64,000 nucleotides of DNA from Moorella humiferrea (GTDB lineage Bacteria > Bacillota > DSM-521 > Neomoorellales > Neomoorellaceae): the NCBI RefSeq assembly GCF_039233145.1, contig NZ_CP136419.1:2144001-2208000 (forward strand), given 5' to 3'. Each line of letters starts with the position of its first letter. The stretch's first letter is position 1. Positions 11,328-45,801 of this stretch are shown here, in pieces. The notes below the pieces were generated by a model. The model was not told the DNA's origin, ran no database searches, and saw only the letters and a program-made list of their open reading frames with translations. The position numbers and the translations under genes are program-made.

Positions 11328-12551
11328 CTACCAATCCAGCAGGCGCTTTTCTCCTTCCAGGGCGCGGATGTCTGTCACGTCCTGGGTGACCTCCACCACG
11401 CCCCGGTAGCGGCCCTCAGCGTCGCGCACGGCGAAATAACGAATATGAATGAAGCGGCCGTTCATGGTTAGCCAGAATTCAGCCTCACTCCTGGTACCGT
11501 CGCGGAATTCAGCCAGAATCTTCTCCACCACATGAACGCTGGCCGGGGGGTGGCAGTTCTGCACTTTACGGCCGATGATAGCCGGGCTGCGGGTAAAAAT
11601 GCGGTGCTTACCGGCGGAATAATAGCGCATGACGTCATTTTCATCGACAAAAGTTACGTCAACGGGTAAATGGGTGAGGAGGAGGTTCACCTGTTCGGGA
11701 GTAAGCCTGCCCGTGGCCAATTCCAACTCCTCCGTCCCGGTCTCTCTTTTTTGTCCCCCGGCGCTCTGCTCCCCTTCTCCCTGGGGGTTCCATACATTCC
11801 CGGGAGTAACTAGGGTATAACCTATTTCCTCTTCACCCCGGCGTACCTCCACCCAGTCGGAGGGTGTAAGTTTTTCCAGGGCCATGGGGAAGAGGATGCT
11901 TTCTTCCTTATTAATCATTTCCCCTATAGCCGTGAGCAGTTCGTTTCCCTGGTTGATAACAGTAGCCAGATCATCTTCATCCACGGCACGGGTTACCTTT
12001 TTCAACATAGCCCGGATATCGTCGTGGAGCTGCCACATGACCTTGGGCGGGCCGTATACTCCCCGCCGTTCCAGCAGCGGAAACAGCTGGTGCTCCTTGC
12101 GGAGGTAATGTTTGTCGATTTCCGCCAGGCGGGTCAGCTCTTTTTTGATTTCTTCCTTCTGCTGTCGAAAAACTTCCCGGCCTTCCTTATCTGCCGCCTT
12201 AATTTCCCCCAGGAGCTTCTTCAGGGCCTCCACCACGCCGCGTATGGCTTCGTTCTCCAGGCGGAAGGTGTGGACGGGGTGGCCGGGTGGGGTGGGTTCA
12301 ACCTGCTGTTCGGCCAGGGATTCTTTAAACAGGGCGACGTGAACATCGCATAAGCGCTTGATCTCCTCTTCCGGCATGCCCTCGGCAATAAGCCGGCTTT
12401 CCATGGCCGCGATTTCACCCGGGCTGACGTTACGAATCAGCCTAGCAAAGCGTTGTTTCAGCTCTTCCAGGTCCTTACCGGCATGTAAATCCCGGATAAT
12501 CCCCTTTAAAATTTCCTGGCGCTCTTCCCGGGCATCCAGCAGTTCACTCAC
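11328..12551 (-). CDS. DUF438 / hemerythrin-like / PAS domain protein
   Basis: This 407-residue cytoplasmic protein has three parts. Residues 1-80 match DUF438 (SELLDAREERQEILKGIIRDLHAG). Residues 110-260 are a hemerythrin-like four-helix bundle with likely di-iron ligands in HVALF, EIDKHYLRKEHQLFPLLE, WQLHDDIR and NKEESILFP. Residues 310-400 are a PAS domain ending GRYRGVVEVTQDVTDIR. Such proteins are thought to sense oxygen, NO or redox state. The start is GTG 12549-12551, chosen because GGAGAA lies 8 bases upstream and the family begins SELL; ATG 12557 and TTG 12626 are also open. It is divergent from a cupin gene. Confidence 0.85.
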   Translation of the reverse strand: MSELLDAREERQEILKGIIRDLHAGKDLEELKQRFARLIRNVSPGEIAAMESRLIAEGMPEEEIKRLCDVHVALFKESLAEQQVEPTPPGHPVHTFRLENEAIRGVVEALKKLLGEIKAADKEGREVFRQQKEEIKKELTRLAEIDKHYLRKEHQLFPLLERRGVYGPPKVMWQLHDDIRAMLKKVTRAVDEDDLATVINQGNELLTAIGEMINKEESILFPMALEKLTPSDWVEVRRGEEEIGYTLVTPGNVWNPQGEGEQSAGGQKRETGTEELELATGRLTPEQVNLLLTHLPVDVTFVDENDVMRYYSAGKHRIFTRSPAIIGRKVQNCHPPASVHVVEKILAEFRDGTRSEAEFWLTMNGRFIHIRYFAVRDAEGRYRGVVEVTQDVTDIRALEGEKRLLDW

Positions 12552-12707
12552 GACCATTTCTCCTTTTCGCTTATTTACTAAAATGTTTCCCTGGCCAAAG
12601 TCCGGGTTATGCATCTTTGCACTCAAAAAAACCTCTTTACTTGCACGCCAGGGCCGGCGCCGGGCACTGTTCGCACTATTTTGTTATTTTATTCCTTCCT
12701 TCCCGGT

Positions 12708-13171: not shown

Positions 13172-13209
13172 CCTCATATACCTTACTATCTATGCGGGTC
13201 GGAGTAAAG

Positions 13210-13632
13210 ATGCAGGAGAAAAAATTTTTATCAACGCTTAAACCTATATTTGCCTCTTTACCGGATGTCGTTGCCGTATATTTATTTGGCTCATATTTAA
13301 ACGAGCCTGAGCGGGCGCGGGATGTGGACCTGGCAATTCTTCTCAAAACAACGGAAAGTAGGATAACATACTACTATATGCATCTTTATTCAAAGCTGGG
13401 AGAAATTTTTTCGCCTCTTGAAGTGGATCTGCTCTTTTTAAATTGCGCGCCCGTGCCTATAGCTTTTGAAGTGATTAATACCGGCGAGGTTATTTATTGT
13501 ACTGATGAGGAGCGCCGGACAGACTTTGAATACGTTATTTCCGGTTTATATCTTGATTATAATTACCATCTACACCAGGGCAGGCGGGAATTATATGAAG
13601 CAATAAGGGAGGCTTCATCCCTTGTTCAATGA
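13210..13632 (+). CDS. MntA-like nucleotidyltransferase antitoxin
   Basis: This 140-residue minimal nucleotidyltransferase has the family signature YLFGSYLNEPERARDVDLAI near residues 24-43: the Gly-Ser turn and the two metal-binding Asp of DVD. A third acidic residue lies in LEVDLLFL near residue 72. MntA proteins neutralise their HepT partner by transferring AMP groups to it. The start ATG 13210 has GGAG five bases upstream; an ATG at 13192 has no site. The gene overlaps the HEPN gene by 11 bp, the standard arrangement of this module. Confidence 0.85.
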   Translation: MQEKKFLSTLKPIFASLPDVVAVYLFGSYLNEPERARDVDLAILLKTTESRITYYYMHLYSKLGEIFSPLEVDLLFLNCAPVPIAFEVINTGEVIYCTDEERRTDFEYVISGLYLDYNYHLHQGRRELYEAIREASSLVQ

Positions 13633-14053
13633 GGAACTAATAGCCGCAAGGCTGGATATTATTCAAAGCGCTATAAGAAGGTTGCAGCTCCTGGCACGCA
13701 TGCCACGGGAACAATTCCTGCAAGACGAAGATGCTGTGGATATTGCTGAAAACAGGTTGCGCCGGGCCCTGGAAGCATTGTTTGACCTGGGCCGCCACCT
13801 GGTGGTAAAATCAGGCCTTGGCGTCCCCCAGGACTATCGGGCGATAATCGAAAAGCTGAAGGACGGTCAAATACTACCCGCAGATTTTGCCACCCAGATT
13901 ATGGGCATGGCCGGTTACCGCAATCGTCTTGTCCATGAATATAACAAGGTGACACCGGAAGAACTATATGAAATCCTGCAAAACCGCCTGGGGGACTTTA
14001 CGCTGTTCTGTCAACATATTGTGAATTACCTAGAGAGGCAATTCCCAAGATAA
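13622..14053 (+). CDS. HepT-like HEPN ribonuclease toxin
   Basis: This 143-residue, all-helical HEPN (DUF86/HepT) protein carries the catalytic R-x4-H motif in GYRNRLVHEYNKV near residues 99-111, with the following Tyr that MntA AMPylates in known systems. The TTG start at 13622 lies inside the end of the mntA-like gene. HepT is an RNase toxin held in check by MntA. The last 28 bp run into the 3' end of the convergent amidohydrolase gene. Confidence 0.85.
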   Translation: MFNEELIAARLDIIQSAIRRLQLLARMPREQFLQDEDAVDIAENRLRRALEALFDLGRHLVVKSGLGVPQDYRAIIEKLKDGQILPADFATQIMGMAGYRNRLVHEYNKVTPEELYEILQNRLGDFTLFCQHIVNYLERQFPR

Positions 14054-15342: not shown

Positions 15343-15382
15343 ATGTTAGTACGATACAAATAGTCCCCGAGAGGTGGAACGA

Positions 15383-16264
15383 ATGATTTACAAACTGGAA
15401 TTAACCGCGGAAGAGATGCAGCAGCAGGGTTTGTTAAAGGTTGGAGAAGGAAGTGATTACAAACAAATGGACCATGGAAGTAGCTGTTGAAACCCAGCCG
15501 GAGAAGGTGTTGGTCAACACCAGGAAGCAAATACTGAAAATTGTCTAGTTTGCGGCGGGAAACTGGAATACCTTGAATTTGGCAAGGAATTTACGTGCAT
15601 GCAATGCGGCGCAAAAGAGACGGGTTATGTTTATTGTCCGGGAGGTCATTATATCTGTAATAATTGCCACGGTGAAAATTTGTTTAACGCTATTTTAAAT
15701 TTAACACTTTCCGCAGAAGGTATTAATCCTTTGTCCATAGCCGAAGAAATTATTAAACATGTTCCTCTTCCCATGTTAGGATGCGAGCATGCCTGGATTG
15801 CTGCCGGAGCCCTTTTGTCCGCCATAAGAAATCATGGAAAAATCGAAGTCACAAATGGCCAAATTAACGAAGCACTCAACCGGACCCGTAGGCAAGCCAT
15901 TGGTGCCTTTTGTGGCCTGACGGGCGTTTGCGGTGTAGCTCCGGCGATTGGGGCTTCCTTTAGTGTTATTCTCGGCGCCGCCTGCCCAAAGGACCAGGAA
16001 ACCGCCACCACCATGCGTGTTGTCTCACGGGTCATAGAAGCTATCGCCGACCAAACCGGCCCCTGTTGCTGTAAAAACTTCGTACGGACAGCATTAACTC
16101 TGAGTTGCCAGTTAGCTAAAGAGTATCTAGGGATTGAGTTGGCGCATACCGAAAAAATAGTATGCCAGGATAGTCACCGTCATCCCCACGGTTGTAGAAA
16201 AAACAAATGCAACTACTACCTTATAGAGCAGGAAAGTCCCATCAACTCAAATAGCCCGATTTGA
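15383..16264 (+). CDS. DUF5714 protein read through UGA, probable selenoprotein
   Basis: The first ATG with a good site (GAGAGGTGG, five bases away) is 15383. Its frame meets TGA at 15488-15490 after 35 codons and continues in the same frame without another stop to 16264, giving 293 residues if UGA is read as selenocysteine (GSSC-U-NP, residue 36). Stopping at the TGA, or starting at the internal ATG 15599, would lose the first zinc-ribbon Cys pair (CLVCG, residues 54-58). Further Cys follow at CMQC, at CPGGH with CNNC, at CCCKNF, and near the C-terminus (GCRKNKC). This pattern and the central helical part match DUF5714, whose function is unknown. The SECIS-like hairpin after the TGA supports recoding; a nonsense mutation is the alternative. 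Confidence 0.8.
15488..15521 (+). promoter_or_regulatory. In-frame UGA plus bacterial SECIS-like hairpin
   Basis: TGA 15488-15490 is followed by 15 bases and then a hairpin: GGTGTT (15506-15511), loop GGTC (15512-15515), AACACC (15516-15521). The six base pairs are perfect. The apical loop begins 21 bases after the TGA. The E. coli fdhF SECIS also presents a GGUC loop about 18 bases after its UGA and is bound there by SelB, so position and loop agree with the bacterial SECIS model. Confidence 0.75.
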
Positions 16265-45622: not shown

Positions 45623-45707
45623 ATCCCTCCGGTGTAGCACTAAAGTGCCTGTACCACTCGGACCTGACCGCGAAATTTTCGCGCGGAACCCTGAGGTACA
45701 CTTTCAG

Positions 45708-45775
45708 GCTGTAGCCAGGGCAATTTACGGTTGCCCGGTAGAAACTTGGGAGCCCTATTCCCCCAATTATACAGT
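45708..45775 (-). promoter_or_regulatory. Guanine-type purine riboswitch
   Basis: The minus-strand leader contains the purine aptamer: P1 CTGTA/TACAG, the conserved TATAAT junction, a P2 stem TTGGGG/TCCCAA, the J2/3 core AAGTTTCTACC, P3 GGGCAA/TTGCCC with loop CCGTAAA, and closing GGCTAC. The base that reads the ligand is C (CTAC), which predicts guanine or hypoxanthine rather than adenine. It lies between the promoter and a strong hairpin, so binding should turn the pur operon off. Confidence 0.93.
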
Positions 45776-45801
45776 CCCCACCATATTCACTTTTCGCCCC
45801 C

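Follow-up and report, generated by a model that had tools for sequence, protein, structure and literature searches.

The window analyzed here, a 64,000-nucleotide stretch of the Moorella humiferrea genome, contains a DUF5714 gene that is interrupted by an in-frame TGA (Table 1). The reading frame opens with an ATG at 15383, meets the TGA at codon 36 and remains open for another 257 codons until a TGA at 16262–16264. The strong ribosome-binding site, the TGA after 35 codons and the 257 further codons were all found as claimed in a preliminary description of this DNA. The earliest standard start 3' of the internal TGA is an ATG at 15599, which is located beyond C54 and C57, in agreement with the earlier statement that no downstream start could include the first Cys pair of the zinc-ribbon. 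An annotation that ends at the UGA shortens the DUF5714 gene, with the loss of the Cys-Sec site and part of the zinc-ribbon.

Table 1. Features of the DUF5714 gene, with positions in the window.
Feature	Position	Strand	Basis
Ribosome-binding site AGAGGTGG	15370..15377	+	5 nt before the ATG; read directly from the sequence
Probable one-domain DUF5714 selenoprotein gene, 293 residues	15383..16264	+	Open frame with TGA = U; PF18978 and NF045648 matches
UGA very probably read as selenocysteine, Sec36 in S-S-C-U-N-P	15488..15490	+	TGA kept in 46 homologues from other genomes
Predicted bacterial SECIS hairpin, 6-bp stem GGTGTT/AACACC, loop GGTC	15506..15521	+	Covariation and synonymous-codon test
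Cys/His-rich zinc-ribbon part: C54, C57, C72, C75, C85, H89, C92, C95, H96	15542..15670	+	Alignment; invariant in Sec and non-Sec forms
DUF5714 helical core with the Sec-form-specific C134, C201, C228, H267, H269	15692..16219	+	PF18978 match, alignment, AlphaFold2 model

The translated protein matched the Pfam family DUF5714 (PF18978) over residues 104–279, with an E-value of 7e-53 and 179 bits against a gathering score of 26.2. Residues 43–286 also matched positions 30–273 of the 468-position NCBIfam model NF045648 (MbdU), with an E-value of 2e-108. The score of 364 bits is below the cut-off of 600 bits for this model because the window protein corresponds to the DUF5714 half only, with a single predicted Sec. 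The gene stands alone, with an amidohydrolase gene on one side and a vitamin-type transporter (Vut_1)/QueF-like pair on the other; an MNT/HEPN pair is also found nearby. No metal-resistance genes were observed beside it. The Vut_1 transporter and QueF-like neighbors were considered as a functional link and rejected, as they recur only in a Moorella relative whose protein is 92% identical. The Rfam scan identified no element at the DUF5714 gene. A purine riboswitch (Rfam RF00167, 71 bits) is located elsewhere in the window, at 45692–45794 on the minus strand.

We collected homologues by a scan of genome contigs and relatives, which yielded 47 TGA-containing sequences including that of the window. 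The TGA is present at the matching column in all 46 homologues, which represent many clostridial lineages, such as Moorella, Desulfotomaculia, Desulfosporosinus, Clostridium, Anaerosolibacter, Acetoanaerobium and Thermincola. The residue before the TGA is Cys in 44 of the 47 sequences and Gly or Trp in the other three. Within the genus Moorella, the Sec-form gene was found in three of 11 genomes, counting that of the window, and the 92%-identical Moorella homologue retains the hairpin as well as the TGA with a Cys before it. In the plasmid collection, the only Sec-form relative was from Acetoanaerobium noterae, where there are no annotated genes. A deeply branching sequence (L117 in genome G140; 38% identity) contains an in-frame TGA in the motif SPCUSPAP and was kept outside the hairpin analysis; its genome also carries an ordinary DUF5714 gene.

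A Cys at the UGA column, which had been expected in DUF5714 homologues, was observed in none of them; such a Cys would strengthen a selenoprotein assignment but is not required for one. The ordinary DUF5714 proteins lack the entire N-terminal tail, which explains why they offer no Cys partner in this column. The sole replacement is a Ser codon (TCA) in a Pelotomaculum MAG (L030:6000-6060), where the SECIS-like hairpin is intact, suggesting either that Sec was recently lost or that the sequence contains an error.

The hairpin GGTGTT-GGTC-AACACC begins 15 nt after the TGA, and its perfect 6-bp stem and GGTC loop are as previously described. The two strands of the window contain 1433 TGAs in total, of which seven are followed at 10–20 nt by a perfect hairpin with a 6-bp stem and a 4-nt loop, and the GGTC loop is unique to the DUF5714 TGA among these seven. 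The five-codon block encoding the hairpin was aligned without gaps in 47 of 47 sequences, and five pairs in a fixed register showed standard pairing in 219 of 235 cells. All five pairs change on both sides, as illustrated by the outermost pair (GC 29, AT 11, CG 1), and the residues encoded by the block vary (GVGQH, SAGQH, DTSRY, TAGLQ and others). Of the 47 sequences, 32 have a GGTC loop.

For the 29 distinct blocks, 130 of 145 cells were paired, as compared to 86.4 ± 4.9 cells (maximum 104 in 5000 draws) under a null model of synonymous recoding, which preserves each protein sequence and leaves shared ancestry unmodelled. Sliding the 3' partner by one to three bases reduced the pairing to 38–115 of 235 cells. 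Thus, the covariation of the hairpin far exceeds what the protein sequence imposes. The folding energy of the stretch after the UGA was ordinary (z = 0.01), and support for the hairpin was therefore taken from conservation and covariation instead.

The source genome, 2.67 Mb on a single contig, provides the machinery for selenocysteine insertion. A look-up of selA, selB and selC, proposed at the outset, identified adjacent selB and selA genes with a tRNA-Sec gene near them, and in addition selD (G000:C1:1711002-1711928, L130), which carries an in-frame TGA of its own and is probably itself a selenoprotein gene. The selA gene was present in 16 of 16 checked genomes with the TGA form. Ordinary DUF5714 occurs in genomes with and without selA, and selA was absent from nine of 24 complete genomes holding only the ordinary form (Fisher p = 0.006, a value that is indicative since the genomes are related).

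Taken together, the conservation of the UGA, the covariation of the hairpin, the presence of the sel machinery and the existence of an NCBIfam family of Sec-containing DUF5714 proteins (MbdU) strongly support the original suggestion that UGA36 encodes a selenocysteine adjacent to Cys35, a reading that we consider very probable and for which the support is near the most that sequence alone can give. SelB bound to the GGUC-loop hairpin after the UGA would deliver Sec-tRNA(Sec) to UGA36. It is very improbable that the TGA is instead a true stop, such that the locus is a pseudogene or a frame-dead leader followed by a shorter DUF5714 protein translated from the ATG at 15599. The 221-residue product of that frame would still span the entire Pfam domain, but it would lose the invariant zinc-ribbon residues C54, C57 and C72. 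A true stop is also at odds with the retention of the TGA, the hairpin and, with the exceptions given above, the preceding Cys across the 46 homologues, including the 92%-identical Moorella sequence, and with the presence of selA in every checked genome with the TGA form.

A comparison of the Sec forms with the ordinary DUF5714 proteins showed that both contain the zinc-ribbon and the residues C177/C183, C229/C230 and C261/C271/C276. The ordinary proteins lack the N-terminal Cys-Sec tail as well as C134, C201, C228, H267 and H269, which in the alignment correspond to Pro, Pro, Arg, Asn and mostly Gln or Glu, respectively. In the phylogenetic tree, a branch with 100/100 support sets the Sec forms apart from the ordinary proteins. 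The AlphaFold2 model (mean pLDDT 85) consists of the zinc-ribbon followed by a mostly helical core, and residues 22–47, which hold Cys35 and Sec36, are predicted to be disordered. A Foldseek search against the PDB gave no match with E <= 0.001, and only weak zinc-finger matches came from searching PDB sequences with a profile.

The preliminary description was undecided on whether a Sec form of DUF5714 had been described. Such a form was already catalogued in 2025, as a fusion. According to a 2026 review (PMC13188914), MbdU is a selenoprotein with the motif CU and two Sec residues, credited to Haft and Tolstoy 2025, and the NCBIfam model NF045648 describes this "metal-binding double selenoprotein" as a fusion of DUF5714 and DUF2284. 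Among the papers searched, none mentions DUF5714. MbdU shares the DUF5714 module, the N-terminal Cys-Sec and the zinc-ribbon with the window protein. It differs in having 468 residues and a second Sec, located in a C-terminal DUF2284 domain, whereas the window protein ends after DUF5714 and contains one Sec. The window protein represents a one-domain form of a selenoprotein family that was already known, and not a new class.

Most of the Sec-form relatives have one domain like the window protein, which makes this the commonest version in the set. With its cut-off of 600 bits, NF045648 catches the fused form only and misses the one-domain form, the inclusion of which adds many anaerobes to the known range of a selenoprotein family that is still poorly understood. 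A true MbdU with DUF5714, DUF2284 and two UGAs was identified in Desulfosporosinus acididurans (L043; 789 bits). Another three relatives, from Thermincola MAGs and Desulfosporosinus sp. BG, are fusions of DUF5714 to an AhpD-like domain with three UGAs each (L041:5944-7086, L064:1507-2691 and L065:5983-7095, plus strand). Besides the N-terminal CU, their UGA sites comprise a CEPU within the AhpD part and a CKTU at the C-terminus; in L063, the CKTU tail is present but AhpD is not. A hairpin follows each extra UGA in the fused relatives and L063, and for the last UGA it is mostly located 3' of the stop codon.

No NCBIfam model scored the AhpD fusions above its cut-off. Their AhpD part resembles the AhpD parts of NF041537 and NF045649. 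The arsenite methyltransferase/DUF2284 and arsenite methyltransferase/AhpD selenoproteins (NF041536 and NF041537) have C-terminal modules in common with L043, L041, L064 and L065, but differ in carrying a methyltransferase as the N-terminal half. Both halves are absent from the window protein.

Based on these features, the Cys-Sec pair is predicted to be carried on a flexible N-terminal arm ahead of the Cys/His-rich zinc-ribbon and the helical core. The pair was earlier proposed to be a redox or metal site. The arm, together with C134, C201 and C228, may act as a selenolate/thiolate site at which soft metal(loid)s or organometal(loid)s are bound or reduced, with arsenic and mercury species as examples. 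We put this forward tentatively, as a putative site and our best guess. It is based on the Cys/His content and on the neighborhoods of the relatives rather than on the window locus, and the function is borrowed from the relatives because the window copy has no metal-resistance neighbors. The residues singled out are C35, U36, C134, C201, C228, H267 and H269, and the candidate substrate class is that of arsenic- and mercury-type soft metal(loid)s.

Some relatives are located beside arsenic, mercury or corrinoid genes, and it is for this reason that soft-metal(loid) chemistry is our best functional guess. ACR3 homologues with ArsR were found in the flanks of L032, L041 and L051, identified by the family model in L041 and by clustering in L032 and L051. 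The flank of L041 also contains an ArsE-type thioredoxin and a SaoE-like efflux protein, and that of L051 contains ArsA and a heavy-metal P-type ATPase. The neighbors of the true MbdU in L043 include MerR and a CopZ-like protein. These arsenic, mercury and corrinoid neighborhoods are a minority of the loci, and they suggest a chemistry involving soft metal(loid)s or organometals.

Nearly as likely, and ranking close behind metal(loid) capture or reduction, is a role as a general thiol/selenol redox protein with no particular link to metals (a peroxide or disulfide reductase, or an electron relay), in which Cys35 and Sec36 would form a redox-active selenenylsulfide. A vicinal Cys-Sec pair on a flexible arm would suit a relay, and the AhpD-like partner of three relatives has a CxxU site. 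There is also a weak similarity to PF09719, annotated as "putative redox-active", in 9 of 43 members (best E-value 6e-5). On the other hand, several relatives adjoin arsenic or mercury genes, and the DUF2284 and AhpD partners recur in other NCBIfam selenoprotein families, where they are fused to arsenite methyltransferase.

The corrinoid genes could instead suggest that the protein serves corrinoid or methyl-transfer metabolism and not resistance, for instance by demethylating a methylated metal(loid) or repairing a cofactor. Five relatives are located beside genes for RACo (corrinoid reactivation) and UroD-type methyltransferases, namely L033 and L036, where an arsenic efflux protein and CobW also adjoin, and L029, L037 and L046, with CbiM near L029 and a homologue of it near L037. 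A methionine-synthase-like neighbor is present in four relatives. Such loci are a minority, however, and none of these genes was seen at the window locus, and we regard a corrinoid role as rather unlikely. It overlaps with the metal(loid) function, because methylated arsenic would fit both.

With metal(loid) chemistry as the preferred function, the DUF5714 selenoproteins might be viewed, again with some reservation, as a modular metal(loid)-processing family. The core would be the one-domain, one-Sec protein, fused at least twice, to DUF2284 and to AhpD, with an active site made up of the Cys-Sec arm and the cysteines that replace Pro, Pro and Arg. The fusions would then parallel the arsenite-methyltransferase selenoproteins that carry DUF2284 or AhpD partners.

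Two further genes or gene pairs in the window have counterparts near Sec-DUF5714 genes elsewhere. The MNT/HEPN (Polbeta/HepT-like) pair is of the toxin-antitoxin type and located at 13192–14053 on the plus strand, and both L034 and L074 have a homologous pair close to their Sec-DUF5714 gene. A DUF438-hemerythrin-PAS sensor is encoded at 11328–12626 on the minus strand, and a homologue directly follows the Sec-DUF5714 gene in L053.
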